A stretch of DNA of 64,000 bases from Candidatus Fermentibacterota bacterium (GTDB lineage: Bacteria; Fermentibacterota; Fermentibacteria; Fermentibacterales; JCC-6), in NCBI GenBank assembly GCA_014728175.1, contig WJMA01000010.1, positions 1 to 64,000 of the forward strand, in the 5' to 3' direction. The notes below the pieces were generated by a model. The model was not told the origin of the DNA, made no database searches, and was given only the letters and a program-made list of their open reading frames with translations. Shown piece after piece: positions 14,572 to 28,086 of the stretch. The position numbers and the translations under genes are program-made. Each line of letters begins with the position of its first letter. The first letter of the stretch is position 1.

Positions 14572-14593
14572 GCCTCGGGATCCCGATCGCTTG

Positions 14594-15988
14594 ATGGCCC
14601 GCAAGAGATCCTACTTCGTCTGCTCCGAGTGCGGGGGAGAGTCCTACGCCTGGAGCGGCAGGTGCGAGCACTGCGGGGCGTGGAACACCCTGGTGGAGCA
14701 CGCGGCCCGGGAAAAGGACAAGAGGGCGCGGACAACCGATTCCCAGGCGACCGCGGTACCCCTGGCTGAGGTTCCGACCACCGAGGGCGACAGAATATCC
14801 ACCAGTATGGAGGAGCTGGACCGGGTTCTGGGTGGGGGGCTTCTGTCCGGATCCATGAGCCTGATCGGAGGGGAGCCGGGAATAGGTAAGAGCACCCTGA
14901 TGCTCCAGCTGGTCTCGGCGATAGCGAGTTCCGGCGGCACCGTCCTGTACGCCACCGGAGAGGAGTCGGCCTCCCAGGTGGCCAGGAGGGCCCGGCGCAT
15001 AGGATGCAACACCTCGGAGGTGATGGTCCTGGCGGCCACCTCGCTGGAATCAATTATGGGAACGGTGGCCAAGGCCTCACCAGGTCTGCTGGTCGTCGAC
15101 TCCATCCAGACCGTATACTCGGCCGATCTGACCAGCGCAGCCGGCTCGGTCTCGCAGGTGAGGTACTGCACCGCCGAGCTCCTGAACCTTACCAAGAGCA
15201 GGGGTATGACCACGTTCGTGGTGGGGCACGTAACCAAGCAGGGGGCCATAGCTGGTCCGAAGGTGATGGAACACTTGGTGGACGCGGTCGTATATTTCGA
15301 GGGCGACTCCGGGCATAACTACCGTCTGCTCAGGGTGGTCAAGAACAGATTCGGGTCCACCAACGAGTTGGGTATATTCGAGATGACCTCGAAGGGCCTG
15401 GAGGGCGTCAGAGAGGCTTCCGCCTACTTCCTGAGGCGGGAAGGAATAAACCGCCCGGGAAGCGTGGTGGCGGCGGTCATGGAAGGTAGCAGGCCGTTCC
15501 TGGTCGAGGTGCAGGCCCTTACCAGCATCTCCCGGTACGGCGTTCCCCAACGTACGGTCAACGGCTTCGACTCCAGAAGGCTGTCCATGCTGCTGGCTGT
15601 ACTTGAAAAGAGGTGTGGTACGGACTTATCGAACCAGGACGTATACGTCAACGTGGCCGGAGGCGCCAACCTTACGGATCCCGGAGCCGATCTCGGGGTC
15701 TGCGTGGCGGTCGCCTCCAGCAGAAGGGACCTTACCGTAAGGGAAGGAGTGGCGATTTGTGGTGAGGTGGGGCTGGGAGGCGAGGTAAGGCCCGTCTCCA
15801 GCTTCGACAAGAGGCTGAGCGAGGTTCTCAGCCTGGGATTTTCGATGCTTGTGGGCTCCGTCGAGGATACCGGAGAAGCCAGAGTGGACGGAAAGCCCGT
15901 CAAGGAGGGAGTGCAAGGCTATTCAAATGTGATGGATTCTATAGAGAGCCTTCTCTCCCGGGACTCAGAAGGAGGTAGCTGGATATGA
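14594..15988 (+). CDS. radA: DNA repair protein RadA
   Basis: VCSECGGESYAWSGRCEHCGAWNTLVE; Walker A GGEPGIGKSTLMLQ; KNRFGSTNELGIFEM. Confidence 0.95.
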   Translation: MARKRSYFVCSECGGESYAWSGRCEHCGAWNTLVEHAAREKDKRARTTDSQATAVPLAEVPTTEGDRISTSMEELDRVLGGGLLSGSMSLIGGEPGIGKSTLMLQLVSAIASSGGTVLYATGEESASQVARRARRIGCNTSEVMVLAATSLESIMGTVAKASPGLLVVDSIQTVYSADLTSAAGSVSQVRYCTAELLNLTKSRGMTTFVVGHVTKQGAIAGPKVMEHLVDAVVYFEGDSGHNYRLLRVVKNRFGSTNELGIFEMTSKGLEGVREASAYFLRREGINRPGSVVAAVMEGSRPFLVEVQALTSISRYGVPQRTVNGFDSRRLSMLLAVLEKRCGTDLSNQDVYVNVAGGANLTDPGADLGVCVAVASSRRDLTVREGVAICGEVGLGGEVRPVSSFDKRLSEVLSLGFSMLVGSVEDTGEARVDGKPVKEGVQGYSNVMDSIESLLSRDSEGGSWI

Positions 15989-16989
15989 GCACCAAAGGCT
16001 GGGGCGCAAGAATTGTTTTTATTCTCGTGCTCGGCCTGGTAGGAACACTAGCCTTCAAGTGGTGGATGGGTTTCGTTGGCCTGGGGATAGGCATGCTTGC
16101 CATCGCCCTGGAGATCCTCTTCTTGAGGCTGCCGGCCGAGGAAATAGCGTACGCATTGGTGGGGACCGGAGCGGGTCTGGTTCTGGGTATTCTGGTCGTG
16201 CTGGTGTTGAAGTTGGCCAACATAGACTTGAGCGCCGAGGAGTCAGGTGATCCCCTGGTCATGGTTCCACTGGCCCTGTGCTTCGCCCTGGGGCACGTGG
16301 CGGTAAGAAAGGGAAGACGTCTGGGTCTTTTGGACGCCGGCGAGAAGGAACCCGTGGAGAGAACCCCCATGGTGGTGGATCTATCTGCGGTCGTGGACGG
16401 CAGAGTGGCCGACATGGTCCTGGTCGGTCTACTCAACGGCCCTTTCGTAATTCCCGCTTCCGTCGAGCTGCAGCTGGAGGAGATGAAGAACTCTGACGAC
16501 GTAGTCGAACGGGGCAAGGCCAGACGAGGCCTGGAAACCCTGGAAAGGCTGGAAGAGGCGTGCCGCTCCGCGGAAGAGATCCAGTACAGGGATTTCGGGG
16601 AGGGTCCTCGGGAGAAGCTCCGTCTCCTGGAATGGCTCAGGGACGAGCCGGCCAAGCTCCTAAGCGCGGACGAGGAGCTTCTGGACACCGCCGAGAGGGA
16701 AGGCATCCTCGTCATCAGGCTGGACGAGATCGGGGGCGCCGCGAAAAGGGTCATCCTGCCCGGAGAGAGAGTAAGGCTCAAGCTCATCCGCAAGGGTAGG
16801 AACCCCGGTCAGGGCGTGGGATTCCTCAACGACGGCACCATGGTCGTGGTGGAGGACGGAGAGGACGACGTGTCTCAGATGATCGACGCTATCACCCATA
16901 CCACCTTCAGGGCGTCGGGAGGAACCATGGTGTTCGCCCGGAAGGCTACCGAGGAAAGCCCGGAAGAGCACCAAGAAATAATCACCTGA
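15985..16989 (+). CDS. PIN/TRAM domain membrane protein (YacL-like)
   Basis: N-terminal TM helices, PIN VVDLSAVVDGRVADMVLVGLLNGPFVIPASVELQLEEM, TRAM LPGERVRLKLIRKGRNPGQGVGFLNDGTMVVVEDGE. Confidence 0.92.
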   Translation: MSTKGWGARIVFILVLGLVGTLAFKWWMGFVGLGIGMLAIALEILFLRLPAEEIAYALVGTGAGLVLGILVVLVLKLANIDLSAEESGDPLVMVPLALCFALGHVAVRKGRRLGLLDAGEKEPVERTPMVVDLSAVVDGRVADMVLVGLLNGPFVIPASVELQLEEMKNSDDVVERGKARRGLETLERLEEACRSAEEIQYRDFGEGPREKLRLLEWLRDEPAKLLSADEELLDTAEREGILVIRLDEIGGAAKRVILPGERVRLKLIRKGRNPGQGVGFLNDGTMVVVEDGEDDVSQMIDAITHTTFRASGGTMVFARKATEESPEEHQEIIT

Positions 16990-18143
16990 TGGCCTCCCCG
17001 GTCTGGGGCGCGGTAATCGTCGCCGCCGGAAGGGGCAAAAGGCACGGCGGGGAGGTCCCCAAGCAGTTCCTGGACCTTGGCGGCAGACCGGTCGTCGATT
17101 GGAGCCTGGCCCTGTTCTCCTCTCCGGAAGAGATGGAGGAGCTGGTGGTCGTGCTCCCTCCGGATGGAAGCTGGCGCTCTATCTGGGCCCCTCCGGACGA
17201 TCTGCAGCTGCTGCAGGCCAAGGGCGGACGGCGAAGGAGCGACTCCGTGCTTAGCGGGCTTTCGAAGCTCCGGAAGGCCACCCACGTGTTGGTGCACGAC
17301 GCCGCCCGGCCGTTGGCCGGCGAGAATCTGCTGCGCCGGGTGATGGAGGTCACGATCCGTTGCGGAGCGGCGGTCCCCCTGGTGAGGGTCCCCGATACGA
17401 TAAAGAGGGTCTCCGATGAAGGGCATATACTGGGCACCGTTCCCCGGGACGATCTTCGATTGAGCCAAACCCCCCAGGGCTGTCTTCGGGAAAGGCTCCT
17501 GGAAGCTCTGAGCACGGGGGAGGAATTCACCGACGAGGCTGCCGCCCTGGAGGCTTCCGGAGTGGAGGTAGCCGTGGTGCGGGGCGACCCGCGGAACATC
17601 AAGATAACGACGAGGGAAGATATGGATACGGCCGAAAGGCTGGTGCGAAGCTACGGTCCGGGCCGTCGAACGGGGCTGGGAATGGACTTCCATCGCTTCG
17701 CGAAGAAGGGGACCCTGGCTCTGTGCGGGGTCACCTTTCCCGACCTACCGGCCCTGGAAGGCCACTCCGACGGAGACGTCGGCCTGCATGCCATAGCCGA
17801 CGCGGCACTGTCGGCATCCAGGCTGGGGGACGTGGGAACCCTCTTTCCTCCGGACGATCCCGCATACCGGGGAGCGGACAGCGGCTTGCTGCTCCGAAAG
17901 GTGCGGGAGGTGGTGCAGAGCGAGGGATGGAGGTTCGGGTTCGTGGACTTGACCGTAGTGGGAGAGAGACCTAAGGTCAGCGAGCATCGGGAATCCATGA
18001 TCGAATCCGTAGGCTCCCTGCTCGGGCTGAGACGGAGTCAGGTCTGGGTCAAGGGTACCACGACCAACTCCCTGGGCGAGATAGGCCGGGGAGAGGGACT
18101 GGGAGCCGTGGCGCTGCTGACGCTGGAGCGGTCCGGGTCTTGA
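16989..18143 (+). CDS. ispDF: Bifunctional 2-C-methyl-D-erythritol 4-phosphate cytidylyltransferase / 2,4-cyclodiphosphate synthase
   Basis: IspD: AVIVAAGRGKRHGGEVPKQFLDLGGRPVVDWSL...VHDAARPL; IspF: RTGLGMDFHRFAKKGTLALCGVTFPDLPALEGHSDGDVGLHAIADA...VKGTTTNSLGEIGRGEGLGAVALLTL. Confidence 0.93.
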   Translation: MASPVWGAVIVAAGRGKRHGGEVPKQFLDLGGRPVVDWSLALFSSPEEMEELVVVLPPDGSWRSIWAPPDDLQLLQAKGGRRRSDSVLSGLSKLRKATHVLVHDAARPLAGENLLRRVMEVTIRCGAAVPLVRVPDTIKRVSDEGHILGTVPRDDLRLSQTPQGCLRERLLEALSTGEEFTDEAAALEASGVEVAVVRGDPRNIKITTREDMDTAERLVRSYGPGRRTGLGMDFHRFAKKGTLALCGVTFPDLPALEGHSDGDVGLHAIADAALSASRLGDVGTLFPPDDPAYRGADSGLLLRKVREVVQSEGWRFGFVDLTVVGERPKVSEHRESMIESVGSLLGLRRSQVWVKGTTTNSLGEIGRGEGLGAVALLTLERSGS

Positions 18144-18757
18144 TAGCGTGGGTCCTTTCGCTTCTGCAGAGTCATCCCCCCGGGATATGGGTGTTGGGGC
18201 TTCTGGGCATGACCGCCGCCACCGAGACCATGTTCCCGCCCTTTCCCGGAGACCTGGTCTTCTTGATAGTCGCCGGGTGGGCGGTTCTGGGAGGATCACC
18301 CATCTGGGGCGTGATTGCTGTCGGGTTCCTCGGCTGCCTGGTCTCCAGCTACTTCCTGTACAGAATAGGAAACACGGCCGGTCGGGGTTTCACCAGGGGC
18401 TATCTCTCCAGGAAGTTCGACCCGGAAAAGGTTGAGCGGGCGCAGAAACTCTTCTCCGGACATGGGCCGATCATCCTGATAGCCAGCAGGTTCATCCCCG
18501 GCATAAGGTCTCTCCTGGTAGTGGTCGCCGGTGCCTCGGGAATGACCGCCACCGCCACCCTGCTCCCGGTCGCTCTCAGCGCCGCTGTGTGGTACTCGCT
18601 GCTGGCGGTGGGCGGAAAGTTGATGGGAGCGAATGCGGAGGCGGCCAGAGCGTTCATGGACAGCTACGAGCGATGGATATGGCTTGCCGTAGGGGTCGGG
18701 GCGGGGATATACGCCCTGGGAATGATCTTCAGATCGAGGGGAGAGAGTGAGGGATGA
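18140..18757 (+). CDS. DedA family membrane protein
   Basis: TETMFPPFPGDLVFLIVAG...RFIPGIRSLLVVVAGASGM. Confidence 0.87.
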   Translation: MIAWVLSLLQSHPPGIWVLGLLGMTAATETMFPPFPGDLVFLIVAGWAVLGGSPIWGVIAVGFLGCLVSSYFLYRIGNTAGRGFTRGYLSRKFDPEKVERAQKLFSGHGPIILIASRFIPGIRSLLVVVAGASGMTATATLLPVALSAAVWYSLLAVGGKLMGANAEAARAFMDSYERWIWLAVGVGAGIYALGMIFRSRGESEG

Positions 18758-19494
18758 GCGGCGGCGATGTATGGCGGGCGGTCTCGGCCGTATTCGTTCA
18801 GCTGGTAAGACCTGGCCGGGCCTACAGGCTTCTGCGACGACCCCGCGCGGCGATGGTAGCCCTGTCGGTAACCGCCGGGGTGGTGGTCGGGCTATCCGCC
18901 CTTACGCTGATGCTTATGGATTGGGAACGGATAGAGAGGGAATGGCGTCTGGAGAGGACCGAGGAGCTTCTATCGGAGGAACGCTCGACTGCCTACACGG
19001 ATAGCGTCCTGACCGAGGAGATGTCCATGCTGGAGTGGCGCAGGAGCTCCCTTCCTCTCATAAGCCTCATGGAGAGAGCGCTTTACGCATTGGTAGGCGG
19101 GCTGGCGACGTTCGGTGTGGTCTACGCCGCCAAATGGAACTGGAAAAGGAATATATTGCTCCACTTGAAGGCGGCCGGCCTGGCTCAGGGAGCGTACATG
19201 ATCGTGGGTTTCCTGATCTCGGCCGTTTACGCGGCCGCCGGGTACTGGGACGCACCCTCCCCGGCCCTCTCTGCATTAATGCCCACAGATCTTGCCGACC
19301 CCTCCCGCCTCTACGTGTTCCTGTTCGTCATGCTCTCCCATGTGGACCTGCAGTCCGTGGTTGCGGTGGGACTCTGGGGCACCGGTCTGTCCGCGGCGTT
19401 CGATCGTCCGGCCGGAACGGGAATAAGGGTCACTTCTTTCGTTTATCTCTGCGGTGTGGTTCTGGTGGCTGCTCCCGTACTGGCCTCCCGATGA
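18754..19494 (+). CDS. Yip1-like polytopic membrane protein
   Basis: LVRPGRAYRLLRRPRAAMVALSVTAGVVVG; multiple TM helices. Confidence 0.55.
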   Translation: MSGGDVWRAVSAVFVQLVRPGRAYRLLRRPRAAMVALSVTAGVVVGLSALTLMLMDWERIEREWRLERTEELLSEERSTAYTDSVLTEEMSMLEWRRSSLPLISLMERALYALVGGLATFGVVYAAKWNWKRNILLHLKAAGLAQGAYMIVGFLISAVYAAAGYWDAPSPALSALMPTDLADPSRLYVFLFVMLSHVDLQSVVAVGLWGTGLSAAFDRPAGTGIRVTSFVYLCGVVLVAAPVLASR

Positions 19495-19540: not shown

Positions 19541-20863
19541 ATGAAGGTTCTTCTATTTCTTTTCGCTCTGGGTTTTCTGGTAACCGGGGTTTCCGGTGAG
19601 GAGACCGACTCGGGCGACAGCCTGGCCCTTGATCTGTCCGGATGGGTATCGCTGGCCCTGCGAAGCTCCCCCGATCTGGTATCGGCGCGGGCGTCTGTCA
19701 ATACTTCGGAAGCCGCGCTTACCGCATCCAGGTCGTTTATGTGGCCCAGCCTGACCTTTTCCGCCTCCGCCGGTCACGAGTGGACCTCCTCCTCTCTGGG
19801 AGAGTACGAGGTCGGCTCGGGACAAACCGACTACGATTCCTACTCCAGCTCGCTGCTCCTGTCGCAGGAGCTTCTATCCTCCGGCGGCTCCAGCTGGATG
19901 GACCTCTACGCCAGCAGGCATCGGCTCCAAGCATCCCGGCAGGACTACAGGCAGACCGAGCTGGACGTGGTGTTGGAGGTCGTGGAGAGCTACTACTCCT
20001 TCGTGGAGGCCCGGGAGCTTCTGGAGTCCTCCCGCAGAACGCTTCGCAGAAGCAGCAGTCAGCTGGAGAAGACCGAGCATCTTTACGACCTGGGCGCGGC
20101 CACCACCCTGGAGATCACCCAGGCCAGGGTACGGGAAAGCTCGGACAGGCTTGACGTGGCCCAGCGCAGGCAGGCTCTTTCCACGGCTTACTACGATCTA
20201 TGCGAGGCCGCGGGGGTAGAGCCCGACGGCAGTTACGCCGTTCGAGCGGAGGAAGTGTTCCAACCGCTTACCGAGGAGGACGTTCAATCCATCCCCCTGG
20301 TCCTGGACGGGAATCCCTCCCTGGTCGCCCAGAGTGAGAGGTTGTTCTCCACGGAGGACGAGCTCTCCGCCAGCAAGCGCAGCTACTGGCCTTCGCTCAA
20401 CGCGAGGGGCAGGTGGAGCTGGAGCTCCACCGAGTTCGATCTGGGTGGCGTACCCGAGGAGGACAGCTGGAGCGTGTCTCTCAACCTTACCTGGTCGATC
20501 TTCGATGGCTGGCTGCGGGAGAGCAACATCAATAGCGCCCGGGCCAGCGTGCTGCAGAGCAGGGCGTCGCTGGAGTCGCTGCGAAGGTCTTTACGCACCG
20601 GCCTGGAGAGCGCTTACGAGAACCTGCTTTACTCCATAAGGAGCTACGAGCTGGCCGAGCTCAGCTTGGAGCAGGCCCGCAAACAGCTTGAGCTCTCGCA
20701 GACCAGCTACGATCTGGGAGCCCTGAGCCTGCTGGACCTCCTCGAGGCCCAGGAGGGGCTGTCGGATGCCGAGGCGTCGGTGGTCTCCGCCAGGATCTCC
20801 TGCCTGAAGGCCGAGGCCGGTCTGTGGGTTTTGATGGGTAGGATGCCCAGGCTGGGGGAGTAG
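19541..20863 (+). CDS. TolC family outer membrane efflux protein
   Basis: Signal peptide MKVLLFLFALGFLVTGVSG; SWVSLALRSSPDLVSARASVNTSEAALTASRSFMWPSLTFSAS; ARKQLELSQTSYDLGALSLLDLLEAQEGLSDAEASVVSA. Confidence 0.92.
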   Translation: MKVLLFLFALGFLVTGVSGEETDSGDSLALDLSGWVSLALRSSPDLVSARASVNTSEAALTASRSFMWPSLTFSASAGHEWTSSSLGEYEVGSGQTDYDSYSSSLLLSQELLSSGGSSWMDLYASRHRLQASRQDYRQTELDVVLEVVESYYSFVEARELLESSRRTLRRSSSQLEKTEHLYDLGAATTLEITQARVRESSDRLDVAQRRQALSTAYYDLCEAAGVEPDGSYAVRAEEVFQPLTEEDVQSIPLVLDGNPSLVAQSERLFSTEDELSASKRSYWPSLNARGRWSWSSTEFDLGGVPEEDSWSVSLNLTWSIFDGWLRESNINSARASVLQSRASLESLRRSLRTGLESAYENLLYSIRSYELAELSLEQARKQLELSQTSYDLGALSLLDLLEAQEGLSDAEASVVSARISCLKAEAGLWVLMGRMPRLGE

Positions 20864-20869
20864 GCCGTA

Positions 20870-21149
20870 GTGTCACGTACCCGGAGAGCGTTTCTGACGG
20901 GGCTGGCGCTGGTGGTAGTCGTGGTCCTTATAGTGTCGGTCTCCGGCCGGGAGAATCCTGGGTATCCTGATCGGCTACGCTCTGGCCGCGGCGGTATCGG
21001 AGTTTACGCCCATTCCCTCCAATGTGGAGCCGTGGAGCGTCGCGGTGGCCTTTGAAACAAGCGCCGGTGCGGGAATCATTGCCGGAGTCTACCCTGCCTA
21101 TAGGGTATTCCGGATGAGCCCGGTGGACGCTCTGGGTTACAGATGGTAG
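20870..21149 (+). pseudogene. Fusion scar: 5' end of a MacA/HlyD-like adaptor joined out of frame to 3' end of a MacB/FtsX-type ABC permease
   Basis: Frame from GTG 20870: MSRTRRAFLTGLALVVVVVLIVSVSGRE (TM anchor). From about 20943 in the +1-shifted frame: GRILGILIGYALAAAVSEFTPIPSNVEPWSVAVAFETSAGAGIIAGVYPAYRVFRMSPVDALGYRW* (stop 21147-21149). Confidence 0.8.
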
Positions 21150-21185
21150 CCTATCGCGGTGCGCGGCTGTGGGGGGGTATGTGAC

Positions 21186-23672
21186 ATGATCTCCGGGCGA
21201 AGGCCCCTGGCCAGAAGGCTGACCGCGTTTTCGGCGGGTGTGGGCATCCTGCTTGCGCAGATAGTCTGGAATAGGCAGCTGGTTCTTCTTCTCGGCGGCA
21301 GCGTGGATGCGACGGCGGCGGTTCTGGCCGCGTTCATGCTGGGTCTGGGTCTGGGAGGAAGGACATTCGGCCTGCTGGCCCAGCGCTCCGACCGTCCGGT
21401 GGTGGTGCTCAGGCGCATACTGGCTCTCTGCGCCGTGGTTTCCTTCCTGCCCTTCTTCGGCTCCCGTCTGGCCTCCCAGATGTATCCCACCCTATACGGG
21501 TCCGGGCTTCCAGTACTGCCGGTACGATTCCTGATGAGCCTGGTACTGGTCTTTCCCGCGACCTTCCTGGCGGGGGGCGTGGTCCCGGTTATGGCCAGAA
21601 TCGTCCAGGGGGCGGACGGAGAAAGGGAGACGGCCAGACTATATGGGATAAACGCCGTGGGATCGGCCATCGGAGGCTTCCTGGCGGGATTCGTCCTGCT
21701 GGAGGTCTGCGGCGCGATGTGGACCTTGATCATCGGGGCGGTCCTGCTGGTCCTGCCGTCGGTGCTGTACGTCGAGACCACAGCGAAACCGACCAGAAGG
21801 ACGGGCCGGGGAGAGCGGCCGCCCTGGTTCCTTCTGGGGATATACGCGACCAGCGGCATGATAGCCCTGGCCTACGAAAGCGTCTGGACCAGGCAGTTGT
21901 CCTTCGTCCTGGGAAACAGCACCTACGCGTTTTCCCTGATGGGGGTGATGGTCCTTCTGGGAATAGGCCTGGGGAGCATCGCCGGACAGAAGGCTGGCAG
22001 CAGGGCGGCCAATCCGCTGGTCAGCCTGGCACTGGTGGAGACCGGGTTGGGCATAGCCAGCATACTGCCCCTGTCCGCCCTGGGAAGCTTCAACGACCTG
22101 GTGGATCTGTTCAGTGCGGGCGGCTGGGGAGGAATCGTACTGGGAAGAACCGTTTCCTGTGCCCTGTACATGTTGCCGTCGACCATGCTCATGGGAGCCA
22201 CCTTTCCCCTGATGGTGATGGCTGCGGCCAGAAGTCAAAGGCTGGGAGAGGACGTGGGAACGCTGTCGATGGCCAACTGCATCGGCGCGGCCCTGGGCCC
22301 GGTCTTGGCCACCATGGTTCTGTTCCGCTTCCTGGGCGTTACGGTATCCACCGCGGTGCTGGCCTGCGGCAGCATAGCCCTGGGTACCCTTTTGTTCCTG
22401 AAGGCTTCCCGGAAGCTGTTTCTGCCGATAAGCCTGGTGGCGGCCGCGGTGGTGATAGCCCTGGTTGCGGAATCGCCCCCCCCCGGTTCGCAGCCCCCGC
22501 CGGACATGGAGCTTTTGTTCTTCAGGGAGGATCGAACGGCCACGCTGTCGGTTTTCGGAAGGGAGTGGGACTCGCATAGAAGCCTTCGCATAAACGGGGT
22601 GGAGGAGGTCCCGATCGACCAGCCGTCTCTGGAAGCGTTCTACTCCCTGGGACATCTTCCCTGGGGGTACAACCCCGGGGCGGACCGGGCGATGGTGGTT
22701 GCTCTGGGAGGAGGTGTTACCGCCGGGGCGCTGCTTACCCATCCCCTGCAGCGGGTGGTTTGCGTAGAGCTGTGCCCGGGGCTTCTGGAGGCGCTGCCCC
22801 TGTTCGAGCGGGAGAACCGCAGGCCGGATAGGGACCGGAGGTTCGAGCTGGTCGCAGACGACGGGCGCAACTTCCTTTTGGGCAATGCAGATCTTTACGA
22901 CATAATAATTTGCGATGCAACTCATCCCGGTTCGGTGGACAGCTGGGTCCTCTACACCAGGGAGTTCTACGGATTGGTAAATTCCCGCCTGACCGAGGAC
23001 GGGATCGCCGCCCAGTGGGTACCGCTCCATCAACTCCCACCGGAGGAAATGCTGCGCATACTCGCTACCTGGGCCAGGGTGTTTCCCCATGCCGCGGTTC
23101 ACCTGGTCGGGGGAAGGCACATGGTGCTAGTAGGGTCTCCGGAGGAGCTGGAGCTGGACGTTCAGGCGATGTTCGAAGAGCCGGAGGCCGAAAGCCAGCT
23201 TCGAAGCTTGGGCTATGATCCCCGCTTCCCGGATCAGCTGAGGCCCCTTCTCCACGACCGACACCTGGACCGGCTGGCCGAAAGGGAGAATCTTCGTTCC
23301 AATACCGACACCAGGGCCTACTGCCAGTTCATTCGCTCCAAGCTGAAGGGAGGGGCGCAGAGCACGATCACCCCGAACGTGGCGTCTGCAATGTCCCTGA
23401 GGGATCGACCACCGTCCGATCTGCGCCTGGGCCAGATGATGTACTGGGAGGGTCTTCTTCCCCGGGCGGCGGAGCTTTTTCGGGACCTGGAATCTCCCCT
23501 GGGCAGAAGGTGGCTTTCGGTATGTCTGACCACGGCTGCCGAGCAGCAGGTCCAGGCCGGCAGAGGCGACGAATCGATACCGCTGTTGCGGGAGGCGCTG
23601 AGGGCGGATTCCACATGGAACCGGCCGAAGCGGCTCCTGGATATGATTGAGTCACGACTGCAGGAGTCATAG
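21186..23672 (+). CDS. Fused MFS-like membrane / spermidine-synthase-like (SpeE fold) protein with C-terminal helical repeat
   Basis: Multiple TM helices then MVVALGGGVTAGALLTHPLQRVVCVELCPGLLEAL...LVADDGRNFLL...YDIIICDATHPGS...LYTREFYGLVNSRLTEDGIAAQWVPL. Confidence 0.82.
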   Translation: MISGRRPLARRLTAFSAGVGILLAQIVWNRQLVLLLGGSVDATAAVLAAFMLGLGLGGRTFGLLAQRSDRPVVVLRRILALCAVVSFLPFFGSRLASQMYPTLYGSGLPVLPVRFLMSLVLVFPATFLAGGVVPVMARIVQGADGERETARLYGINAVGSAIGGFLAGFVLLEVCGAMWTLIIGAVLLVLPSVLYVETTAKPTRRTGRGERPPWFLLGIYATSGMIALAYESVWTRQLSFVLGNSTYAFSLMGVMVLLGIGLGSIAGQKAGSRAANPLVSLALVETGLGIASILPLSALGSFNDLVDLFSAGGWGGIVLGRTVSCALYMLPSTMLMGATFPLMVMAAARSQRLGEDVGTLSMANCIGAALGPVLATMVLFRFLGVTVSTAVLACGSIALGTLLFLKASRKLFLPISLVAAAVVIALVAESPPPGSQPPPDMELLFFREDRTATLSVFGREWDSHRSLRINGVEEVPIDQPSLEAFYSLGHLPWGYNPGADRAMVVALGGGVTAGALLTHPLQRVVCVELCPGLLEALPLFERENRRPDRDRRFELVADDGRNFLLGNADLYDIIICDATHPGSVDSWVLYTREFYGLVNSRLTEDGIAAQWVPLHQLPPEEMLRILATWARVFPHAAVHLVGGRHMVLVGSPEELELDVQAMFEEPEAESQLRSLGYDPRFPDQLRPLLHDRHLDRLAERENLRSNTDTRAYCQFIRSKLKGGAQSTITPNVASAMSLRDRPPSDLRLGQMMYWEGLLPRAAELFRDLESPLGRRWLSVCLTTAAEQQVQAGRGDESIPLLREALRADSTWNRPKRLLDMIESRLQES

Positions 23673-23687: not shown

Positions 23688-24629
23688 ATGCCCAAGATAG
23701 CCTTTCTCTTTCCCGGCCAGGCCTCCCAGAGTGTGGGCATGGACGAGCATCTCGATGCGTACCCGGAAGCCGTGGAGGTGCTGGACAACCTGTCTCAACT
23801 CCAAACCGACGAGGACCTGAGAGAGCTGATATCCAACGGCCCTGAGGATCTGCTGACCAGGACCGACAACGTTCAGCCCGCCATAGCGGCGGTCAGCCTG
23901 GCCACCCTGGCCGTGCTCGAGAGGGCGGGAGTGGTGCCGCAGGGAGCGGCCGGCCACAGCCTGGGCGAGTACTCGGCACTGGTGGCGGCCGAGGTGATCG
24001 ATGTAGACCGGGCCTTGAGGCTGACCAGAGTCAGGGGAGAGCTGATGCAGCGATGCGCCGACCGTCATCCCGGAGGCATGCTCGCCCTGCTGGGTATGGA
24101 GGTGGAGCGGGTGAGAGAATGTCTGGAGGATGCTTCCCGATTGGGCCCGGTCGGCATCGCCAACGTCAACTCGTCCGGACAGGTTGTCGTCTCCGGTGCC
24201 CGGGAGGCCTTGGATAGGGCTAAGGAGCTGTGTAAAGAATCGGGTGCCAAGAGGATAATACCCCTGAAGGTGTCCGGGGCCTGGCACTCGCCGCTGATGG
24301 AGGATGCCGCGGAGGGATTGTGGTCGGCTCTGGTGGAGACCCGGTTCGACGACCCCGACCTGCCGGTTCTGGCCAACGTAACCGCCGACTACCTGGTCTC
24401 CGGGGATGAAAGCAGGATTCTTCTGCGCAAGCAGGTAGTATCTCCAGTGATGTGGGCGGCCACCATGGACAGGATGATCGATGACGGCTACGACACCTTC
24501 GTAGAGGTGGGGCCGGGTAGGGTGCTTCAGGGCCTTCTGCGCCGCAGGGAGGACATCTCCCTGTACGGCACCCAGGACGCGGACGCCCTCACCAGAACCG
24601 TAACCAACCTGGGGACGGGGGAACGTTAA
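23688..24629 (+). CDS. fabD: Malonyl-CoA:ACP transacylase
   Basis: KIAFLFPGQASQSVGM...AGHSLGEYSALVAA...ANVNSSGQVVVSGAREAL...PLKVSGAWHSPLM...FVEVGPGRVLQGLL. Confidence 0.94.
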   Translation: MPKIAFLFPGQASQSVGMDEHLDAYPEAVEVLDNLSQLQTDEDLRELISNGPEDLLTRTDNVQPAIAAVSLATLAVLERAGVVPQGAAGHSLGEYSALVAAEVIDVDRALRLTRVRGELMQRCADRHPGGMLALLGMEVERVRECLEDASRLGPVGIANVNSSGQVVVSGAREALDRAKELCKESGAKRIIPLKVSGAWHSPLMEDAAEGLWSALVETRFDDPDLPVLANVTADYLVSGDESRILLRKQVVSPVMWAATMDRMIDDGYDTFVEVGPGRVLQGLLRRREDISLYGTQDADALTRTVTNLGTGER

Positions 24630-24756: not shown

Positions 24757-27700
24757 TTGGAAAACTGGCAAACCCTGCTGGAACGAGACCTGCAGAAGCT
24801 GGCCAAGCCCACCACCTCTCATCGGGGCGAGACTGCCCGGCTGGTCAAGGGAGAGCGCAGGAACGTGGCGGTTCTGTTCCTGGATCTGAAGGACTTCACC
24901 TCGCTTTCGGAGACCCTGGACCACGAAACGGTTCACAGCCTGGTGAACACGGTGATGAGCGCTTTGGCGGACGTGGTCACCAACTACGGAGGCTACGTGG
25001 ACAAGATAGAGGGCGATAGAATCATGGCCCTCTTCGGTGCCAGAAGGGCCGCCGAGAACGACAGCATCAGGGCGGTCTCCTGCGGGCTCAGGATGCTGCA
25101 GACGGTGGACGAGCTCAACACCATCCTGGAGGAGAGGGGCATCAGGCTGGGCGTTCGGGCCGGGATAAGCTGGGGTCCGGTAACCGTGGCCCCGGATGCG
25201 GTGGACCATCTGACGGCGACCGGAGACACGGTCAATCTGGGATCCAGGATGGAGGCTTCAGCCCCCCCGGACTCGATAATGGTTACCGGGGAGGTGAGAA
25301 GCGAATGTGGGGACTACTTCTCCTGGGAGAACCTGGGGCGGATATCCGTTAAGGGCAAGAAGGAGCCGGTGGACGTTTACAAGCCTCTGGGCCCCGGAGA
25401 GGTGCAGAAGGCCAGATGGGAGAGGGCCTCCAGGCTGGCCAGCACCTCCCTGGTGGGAAGGGATACGGAGCTGGACCTGCTGCGGAACTACTTCCACAGT
25501 CAGGTCGCCGAACGGCCGGACCTCAACCTCAGGGGAGGGCGAAGACATCTGGTGGTGGGCCTGAAGGGAGAGGCGGGGGTGGGCAAATCCAGGCTGGTGC
25601 ACGAATTTCTACGGGGCATCGACCGGACCGATGCGCTGGTGCTCAAGGGCCGGGCCCGGTCCTTCGCCCAGCAACCTTTCTGGCTCTGGACCTCCCTCGT
25701 AAGCGATTACCTGTCCCGAACCGGCGATGACTTCGACAGCGAGGCGGCGCTCTACGAGCGCGTAGAGTCCCTGGTGGCCGAACTGGATGCCCGGGCGGTC
25801 GGCGACGCTTTGGTCCGGTCGGTCCCGTTTCTCTGCTCGCTTCTGGCCGTTCCCTCCGAAGACCCCAGGCTGAGCGAGCTCGACGAGCGGTCCAGACACA
25901 GGGAGACGGTCATCGCCGTTCGTAATTTCGCAAGAGCCCTGGGCTCGGGTCACAGACTGGCGATCGTTCTGGACGACCTGCAGTGGATGGACCAGCCTTC
26001 CCGGCAGACCTTGAGCTTCGTGCTGAACAACTGCGACCTGCAACGGCCCATCCTGGTTCTGTGTATGTACAGGCCCGATTGGAAGGAAGAGGGATCTCCT
26101 CTGTCCGAGGTCCATCAAAATTACGCGGTAACGGAGGAGGTATTGCTGGAGCCTCTGACCGAGGCCGACTGCGAGCGACTGGCCGTAGGAATGCTGGATG
26201 GACCTCTGACCGAGGAGGCGCTGCGGTTCCTGGTCCGGCGTTCCGGCTGCAACCCCTTCTTCCTGGAGGAGCTGGTTCTGGATCTGGTCGAATGCGGAAA
26301 CCTGACCGAGACCCCGGAGGGATGGGCCTTGTCGGGAATGGAGGAAGACGTTTACGTTCCCTCGTCCGTAGACGGCCTGATCCGTTCGAGGATAGACCGG
26401 CTTCCCCTCGGGGAAAGGGAGGCCATGCAGCACTGCTCGGTTCTGGGCATGGACTTCGATCTGGCCCTTTTCGAGGAGCTCCATGGGGGACTCGGTCTTC
26501 GGACCGATGCGAATGCGGTGCTCGATTACCTGGTGGAAAGAGGTTTTCTGGTTCGCCCGGATCCTGCGGAGACCGGGGATTACTCGTTTAAAAACGCCCT
26601 GATAAGGCATTCCGCCTACGACACCCTCCTTCTGCACAACCGGAGGACGCTCCACCGATTAGCCGCCGAGTCCATGGAAGCGACGTACGCCGAAGACGAG
26701 GTGGAGAGGATGGCCCCCGTAATCGCCATGCACTGGGAAAAAACGGGTGACGTCGACCGGGCGATTCGGTGGGGGCTTAGGGCCATGCACACCTGCAGAA
26801 GGAATTATCTCAACGAGGAAGGACTGCAGTGGTCGGAGAAGGTCCTGGCCATGCTGGAAGATCGCCCAAGGGAGGGACGGTGGAAGCGCGACCTCCTGGA
26901 GACCCTCCTGGGAAAGGACGATCTTCTCAAGATTCTGGGAAGGCCCGAGGAGAGGGAGCGAAACCTGGAAAGGCTGCTCCGGCAGGCTCCGGAGAGCGAG
27001 CTGCCCGCCGACCACGCCGAGGTGCTCAGCCGTACGGCCCAGCTGTACCGGGTAACCGGAAGGCCGAAGGAGGCCCTGGAGATATGCGAGAGCGCTCTTC
27101 CCATCGCCCGAAGGGCGGGTGCCAGGAAAACAGAGATATACGTACTCAATACGATGGGGGTAATAAGAAGCGGGCTGCTGGGGGAGAGCGAGAAGGCACG
27201 GAAGATAATGACGAAGGCCCTCCAGCTCGCAGAGGAAACCGGCGACCTTTTGAATCAGATCACGCTGCTGGGTAACCTGGGCAATCTGACCTTGAGGTTG
27301 ATGGATCATAGGAAAGCCGCCGAGTATTGCAGCAGAGCGCTGGAGCTGGCCAGAGAGGTGGGAGAGAGAAGGATGGAGGGCATCCTGCTGGGCAATCTGG
27401 CCAGCCTTTACATGGAGGGCGGCAAATTCGACGAGGCCCACGAGTACTACCTCCAGGCTCTGGAGGTAAACAGGGAGACGGGTAACAGGCACGGTGAAGG
27501 CATAGTTCTGGGAAACCTGGGGATTCTTCTTAAAAGGCAGGAGAAGGCCGACGAGGCCAAGGAGTGCTACGACCGCGCTCTACAACTGAACGTCGAGACC
27601 GGAGACCTTGTGCCGCAGGCCCGGTTGCAGGTGAACCTGGGCAACCTGCACGATTCCCTGGAAGAGTACGAGGAGGCCATGAGCAGGTACGAGGCCGCCA

Positions 27701-28086
27701 GGGACATCGCTGCAAGCATAGGTGACAAGAGCACCCTGGCCATCGCCGAGGCCAGCCTGGCCCGGCAGTACGGAAGACTGGAGCAGGTGGACAAACAGGA
27801 AGAGGCCTTGAGGAGGTCGCTGCAGCTTTACAGGGAGCTTGCGAATCCCAGGAACGAGGCCATGGTGCTGGCCGACCTGGGAATAGTTCTGTCCGGGAAA
27901 GGCGAGGACAAGGCTGCCAGACGCTGCTATCTGAAAGCGGTGGAACTGATTGTTTCCAAACAGTTATCCTTGGCCGATTTCGACTCGCTGGGAACACTCT
28001 ACGATATCCTGAGGCAGGGACAGGACGAAGCGACGGAGGAGCTGCCTCCTCCGCCCGAGGATTCGCTCGATGGGGAAAAGGATTAG
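24757..28086 (+). CDS. Class III adenylate/guanylate cyclase - AAA ATPase - TPR multidomain signalling protein
   Basis: VLFLDLKDFTSLSE...YGGYVDKIEGDRIMALFGA...GDTVNLGSRMEA; Walker A GEAGVGKSRLVHEFLRG, Walker B AIVLDDLQWMD; many C-terminal TPRs. TTG start. Confidence 0.9.
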   Translation: MENWQTLLERDLQKLAKPTTSHRGETARLVKGERRNVAVLFLDLKDFTSLSETLDHETVHSLVNTVMSALADVVTNYGGYVDKIEGDRIMALFGARRAAENDSIRAVSCGLRMLQTVDELNTILEERGIRLGVRAGISWGPVTVAPDAVDHLTATGDTVNLGSRMEASAPPDSIMVTGEVRSECGDYFSWENLGRISVKGKKEPVDVYKPLGPGEVQKARWERASRLASTSLVGRDTELDLLRNYFHSQVAERPDLNLRGGRRHLVVGLKGEAGVGKSRLVHEFLRGIDRTDALVLKGRARSFAQQPFWLWTSLVSDYLSRTGDDFDSEAALYERVESLVAELDARAVGDALVRSVPFLCSLLAVPSEDPRLSELDERSRHRETVIAVRNFARALGSGHRLAIVLDDLQWMDQPSRQTLSFVLNNCDLQRPILVLCMYRPDWKEEGSPLSEVHQNYAVTEEVLLEPLTEADCERLAVGMLDGPLTEEALRFLVRRSGCNPFFLEELVLDLVECGNLTETPEGWALSGMEEDVYVPSSVDGLIRSRIDRLPLGEREAMQHCSVLGMDFDLALFEELHGGLGLRTDANAVLDYLVERGFLVRPDPAETGDYSFKNALIRHSAYDTLLLHNRRTLHRLAAESMEATYAEDEVERMAPVIAMHWEKTGDVDRAIRWGLRAMHTCRRNYLNEEGLQWSEKVLAMLEDRPREGRWKRDLLETLLGKDDLLKILGRPEERERNLERLLRQAPESELPADHAEVLSRTAQLYRVTGRPKEALEICESALPIARRAGARKTEIYVLNTMGVIRSGLLGESEKARKIMTKALQLAEETGDLLNQITLLGNLGNLTLRLMDHRKAAEYCSRALELAREVGERRMEGILLGNLASLYMEGGKFDEAHEYYLQALEVNRETGNRHGEGIVLGNLGILLKRQEKADEAKECYDRALQLNVETGDLVPQARLQVNLGNLHDSLEEYEEAMSRYEAARDIAASIGDKSTLAIAEASLARQYGRLEQVDKQEEALRRSLQLYRELANPRNEAMVLADLGIVLSGKGEDKAARRCYLKAVELIVSKQLSLADFDSLGTLYDILRQGQDEATEELPPPPEDSLDGEKD

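Follow-up and report, generated by a model that had tools for sequence, protein, structure and literature searches.

An intact tolC gene followed by the joined ends of a MacAB-type efflux operon in a Candidatus Fermentibacterota genome: very probably an internal deletion scar

Known systems and the operon of related genomes

Among the described tripartite efflux systems, MacAB-TolC of E. coli (MacA, MacB and TolC; PDB 5nik) is closely comparable to the operon from which the present locus appears to derive. The operon of related genomes likewise encodes an OEP channel, an HlyD-type adaptor and MacB_PCD/FtsX permeases, and the second permease of one relative (G027) matches MacB structures with an E-value of 5e-48. 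The two differ in that MacB is one fused homodimeric protein, whereas the relatives encode an ATPase and two different permeases as separate polypeptides. An ATPase encoded apart from the permease is also a property of the YknXYZ- and LolCDE-type transporters of the MacB superfamily, and LolCE use two different permeases, as in the relatives' operon (PMC5985334). These transporters differ from the relatives' operon, in which genes for a TolC-family channel of the outer membrane and for an adaptor are also present. A MacAB-TolC pump has been lost naturally in Salmonella Typhimurium ST313 lineage 2, in which macB is a pseudogene as the result of a frameshift (PMC8018540). In the present study, we describe a locus where such a system, intact in relatives, is destroyed, not by a frameshift in macB but apparently by a deletion of about 4 kb across four genes. 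No report of this locus was found in the efflux literature searched, and the event is of a known kind, of which the locus is a good example and not something new.

The window, that is, the whole stretch of 64,000 nucleotides analysed, lies on contig C54. Its genome, G000, is a 2.6-Mb draft in 67 contigs with a completeness of 95.9%. The features given below between 14591 and 24629 are on the + strand. In relatives with the intact arrangement, the syntenic order is radA–ispDF–dedA–tolC–macA–ABC–permease1–permease2–spermidine-synthase-like–fabD. The full operon was found between the same flanking genes in four genomes of the sister family f3 (G026-G029); the contig of G029 stops before fabD, and in a further genome (G025) the contig starts inside macA and keeps the same order from there on. 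Wherever a contig with the syntenic operon includes the end of tolC, macA is the very next gene. The G027 genes encode an HlyD-type adaptor of 390 aa, an ABC ATPase of 229 aa, and MacB_PCD/FtsX permeases of 411 aa and 416 aa. The initial annotation had expected a complete tolC-macA-macB operon in related genomes, and it was recovered there in synteny, in the form tolC-macA-ABC-permease-permease. This also supports the proposal that one deletion took the middle of the operon and orphaned TolC, as the intact operon stands between the same flanks.

The two gene ends behind tolC

The upstream flank (14591..18757) consists of radA, a gene at 15985-16989, an ispDF fusion and a dedA-like gene, of which radA, ispDF and dedA are syntenic anchors. 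It is followed by a further anchor, a membrane protein identified by synteny and without a Pfam match (18754..19494). The tolC gene (19541..20863, stop codon at 20861-20863) is whole and encodes a TolC-family outer-membrane factor of 440 aa with full-length OEP domains (Pfam PF02321, 214 bits), 44-51% identical to the tolC products at the same position in relatives; it now has no operon partners. Downstream lie an MFS/spermidine-synthase-like gene (21159..23672; Pfam Spermine_synth), which is the same neighbour in G025-G029, G003, G004, G007 and G018, and a fabD-like gene (23688..24629), whose counterparts at the corresponding position in relatives are 57-61% identical. Beyond this anchor, a large protein of 1109 aa is encoded at 24757-28086, in which, by eye, an adenylate-cyclase domain, an ATPase and TPR-like repeats seem to be present.

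Between tolC and the spermidine-synthase-like gene, two gene ends are joined. The first opens with a GTG at 20870, just past the tolC stop, reads MSRTRRAFLTGLALVVVVVLIVSVSGREN and then runs out of frame. This left fragment (20870..20948), probably the first ~26 codons of macA, holds a start, an Arg-rich run and a hydrophobic anchor, so that the GTG reading frame with an anchor-like beginning described in the initial annotation is present. Its identification as a MacA N-terminus stands by position and layout: the order of basic residues and then a hydrophobic helix is that of a MacA start, and macA begins at this very position, right after tolC, in G026-G029. The similarity itself did not bear the claim out, as the match to MacA N-termini is not above composition-matched shuffles, 102 of 500 of which score as well. 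Since shuffles often equal the score, the MacA identity rests on position. No HlyD domain was found in the remnant of the window, in which at most the adaptor anchor is left.

The left fragment could instead be the beginning of a different gene that followed tolC and was deleted along with the operon, for example that of a secreted protein of ~1000 aa known from genera g5 and g2. Such a protein is encoded directly after tolC in several relatives, the last residues of its signal peptide are GEN or GKN, where the window reads SGREN, and the similarity to MacA is, as stated, not significant. Nevertheless, MacA scores better than the secreted protein both in the profile comparison (12.1 vs 5.4 bits, the MacA score not being above shuffles) and in the best pairwise comparison (36 vs 23), the right fragment shows that a MacAB operon was adjacent, macA follows tolC in the syntenic operons, and the G000 homolog of the secreted gene sits elsewhere, on contig C63. 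We consider this origin unlikely, and the assignment of the left fragment to the 5' end of macA, by position and layout, quite probable. As to the secreted protein itself, it was observed after tolC at L055 11026-14097 and L059 6670-9672 and as two tandem copies in L061. The copy of G008 gave no Pfam match, and by eye the C-terminal end looks like a sorting domain.

The second gene end, the right fragment (20949..21149), reads GRILGILIGYALAAAVSEF...ALGYRW in the +1 frame, from 20949 to a TAG stop at 21147-21149. It holds the last ~66 codons and the stop of a second FtsX/MacB-type permease, as judged from alignment with G027, grouping with permease2 and the Pfam FtsX profile, of which positions 60-120 of 120 are matched (26.7 bits vs a cut-off of 25.5). 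Identity to residues 350-415 of the G027 permease2 is 55-56%, with E-values of 1e-13 to 1e-15, so that the match is not due to chance. The fragment clusters with permease2 and not with permease1; its placement among the permease2 copies A and B has tree supports of 34-89. The switch into an FtsX/MacB C-terminus in another frame, claimed earlier, is therefore real. The attribution to MacB holds for the type of permease C-terminus, but not for a single fused MacB, since the relatives have a separate ATPase and two permeases. The junction, where the frame moves by +1, was placed approximately at 20940..20957 by frame comparison and by permease homology, which begins at 20946-20949.

Missing from the window are the ABC gene and permease1 as a whole, the greater part of macA and ~84% of permease2, with its periplasmic domain and half of its FtsX domain; of an FtsX/MacB permease with a periplasmic core domain, only the last ~66 residues are at the locus. 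In G027, about 4.0 kb separate codon ~28 of macA from codon ~350 of permease2, and we take this as our estimate of the loss. The initial annotation had noted the absence of the adaptor rest, the ATPase and most of the permease from this place, and the missing parts are not found elsewhere in G000 either. The ABC ATPase is not at the locus and has its best match elsewhere in the genome at 44% identity; for macA and the permeases no ortholog was found elsewhere, with best identities of 32% and, outside the remnant, at most 31%, respectively. These best matches to the relatives' ABC, adaptor and permease proteins are distant members of other systems.

Taken together, we consider it very probable that the locus is a genuine internal deletion scar in a split two-permease MacAB-TolC-type operon, an ordinary case of gene decay. 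On synteny and frame analysis, an ancestral tolC-macA-ABC-permease1-permease2 operon would have lost one stretch of ~4.0 kb that began among the opening codons of macA and ended near codon 350 of permease2, a loss that kept tolC whole and joined two gene ends out of frame. The remnant would make no pump.

Age and reality of the deletion

A tree built from four flanking proteins places G000 as the sister lineage of the genera g2, g4 and g5 sampled from family f1 (bootstrap 99), on a branch of 0.55 substitutions per site in these proteins. The tolC gene is kept in 20 of 23 other f1 genomes compared, at 45-50% identity, and the operon at the tolC locus was absent in all other f1 genomes searched. 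A related adaptor-ABC-permease-permease set occurs among these other f1 genomes only in G003 and G004, in both at another locus. In G003 (contig C8, L063 5144-10614), this was observed as a second, intact tolC-adaptor-ABC-permease-permease operon, the adaptor, ATPase and permeases of which are 47-68% identical to those of the syntenic operon and the tolC 34% to that of the window. A search for decayed permease ends at the tolC locus in the other family genomes gave none, the only clear matches being the intact second copies of G003 and G004. In a comparison with public contigs, the TolC of the window matched only Candidatus Fermentibacter daniensis, and no conspecific was found.

The slot after tolC varies within the family. 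In many g2 genomes it holds nothing, and fabD follows within about 85 bp; in g4 and G014 the spermidine-synthase-like gene follows directly; most g5 genomes, G008 and G019 have the secreted protein there, and G002 has a protein of 360 aa (a diguanylate cyclase by eye) and an ORF of 117 aa. In G009 (g5), a parallel scar occupies the same slot (contig C48, L125, about 1310-1690): ~22 codons from the start of the secreted-protein gene run into the final ~107 codons of the spermidine-synthase-like gene, and a TGA stop lies inside. The scars of G009 and of the window share the layout of a 5' gene end joined to a 3' gene end as well as the slot. The endpoints of the G009 scar correspond in relatives to GGGGAGAACATGT in the secreted gene of G012 and to GGAGAGAACATGT in the spermidine-synthase-like gene of G007, a near-repeat of 13 bp, which supports a deletion between short direct repeats there. 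The same kind of recombination would be the likely mechanism in the window, where it is proposed by analogy, the sequence support coming from G009; near the window junction itself, the search for repeats gave short matches only, unrelated to the missing endpoints. A broader idea is that the slot 3' of tolC is a recurrent hotspot of deletion and replacement, in which tolC and some 25 codons at the start of the gene behind it may be spared by selection on the 3' end of the channel gene or by translational coupling while the pump partners are dispensable. We put this forward as a speculation that is more doubtful than likely.

As every sampled member of the family lacks the operon at this locus, a single ancestral, family-wide deletion might have made the window scar, with the other genera losing the leftovers later. 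However, the remnant is open and conserved despite a branch of 0.55, which neutral decay would not allow. At 0.05 substitutions per site, frame and stop survived in 33% of the runs of our simulation, a simple one with indels at 10% per substitution; at 0.1 this fell to 10%, and at 0.2 to 1%. The remnant is also as similar to the relatives as the functional flanking proteins are. Because the branch is long and the remnant is still open and well matched, the deletion probably took place much later than the split, and an origin in the family ancestor has a low probability. A late deletion on the window lineage, probably separate from the losses in the other genera of f1, is the reading suggested by these sequence comparisons. 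Of 23 residues shared without exception by the other second permeases in the comparison, six differ in the right fragment, which is compatible with some decay of the remnant.

It was also considered that the organism has the full operon and that ~4 kb was left out or wrongly joined during assembly, or that strains with and without the operon were collapsed into one. The genome is a draft, with the contig number and completeness given above, and the genes missing here are exactly those present in the full-operon relatives. However, the missing genes are nowhere in the assembly, the junction sequence occurs in it once and not in a repeat, and the operon is missing at this locus from other genera of the family too, one of which has a comparable scar. 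The absence of the missing middle from the rest of G000, together with the single occurrence of the junction, makes a simple mis-join unlikely. We regard an assembly error as decidedly improbable, and a genuine deletion as much better supported.

Least credible of all is a remnant that still functions, for instance by yielding a small membrane peptide if ribosomes shifted by +1 out of the left fragment into the end of the permease: both pieces are open, their frames differ by +1 and the permease piece stays open as far as the original stop codon, but there is no start codon in the permease frame ahead of the conserved part, so that translation of its own is not expected, and the changed invariant residues and the missing domains also stand against it.

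The remaining TolC channel

TolC of E. coli serves several pumps. In G000, two channels of the OEP family were found, one in an RND operon on contig C43 and the other the orphan tolC described here. A further set on contig C17 (L114 5331-9445) encodes a TetR-like regulator, an adaptor of 352 aa and an AcrB-family RND pump of 1019 aa, and no channel gene was found near this adaptor-RND pair. Since the RND pump has no channel of its own, the orphan TolC is an obvious candidate partner, and it has probably been kept for use by other pumps such as this one. The locus thus illustrates operon erosion in a little-studied phylum, with the channel kept and the dedicated adaptor, ATPase and permeases lost; retention of the channel while its partners are lost suggests that it serves several pumps. 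Beyond this example of operon erosion, we see no broad consequence. For annotation, a lone tolC gene is not evidence for a MacAB system.
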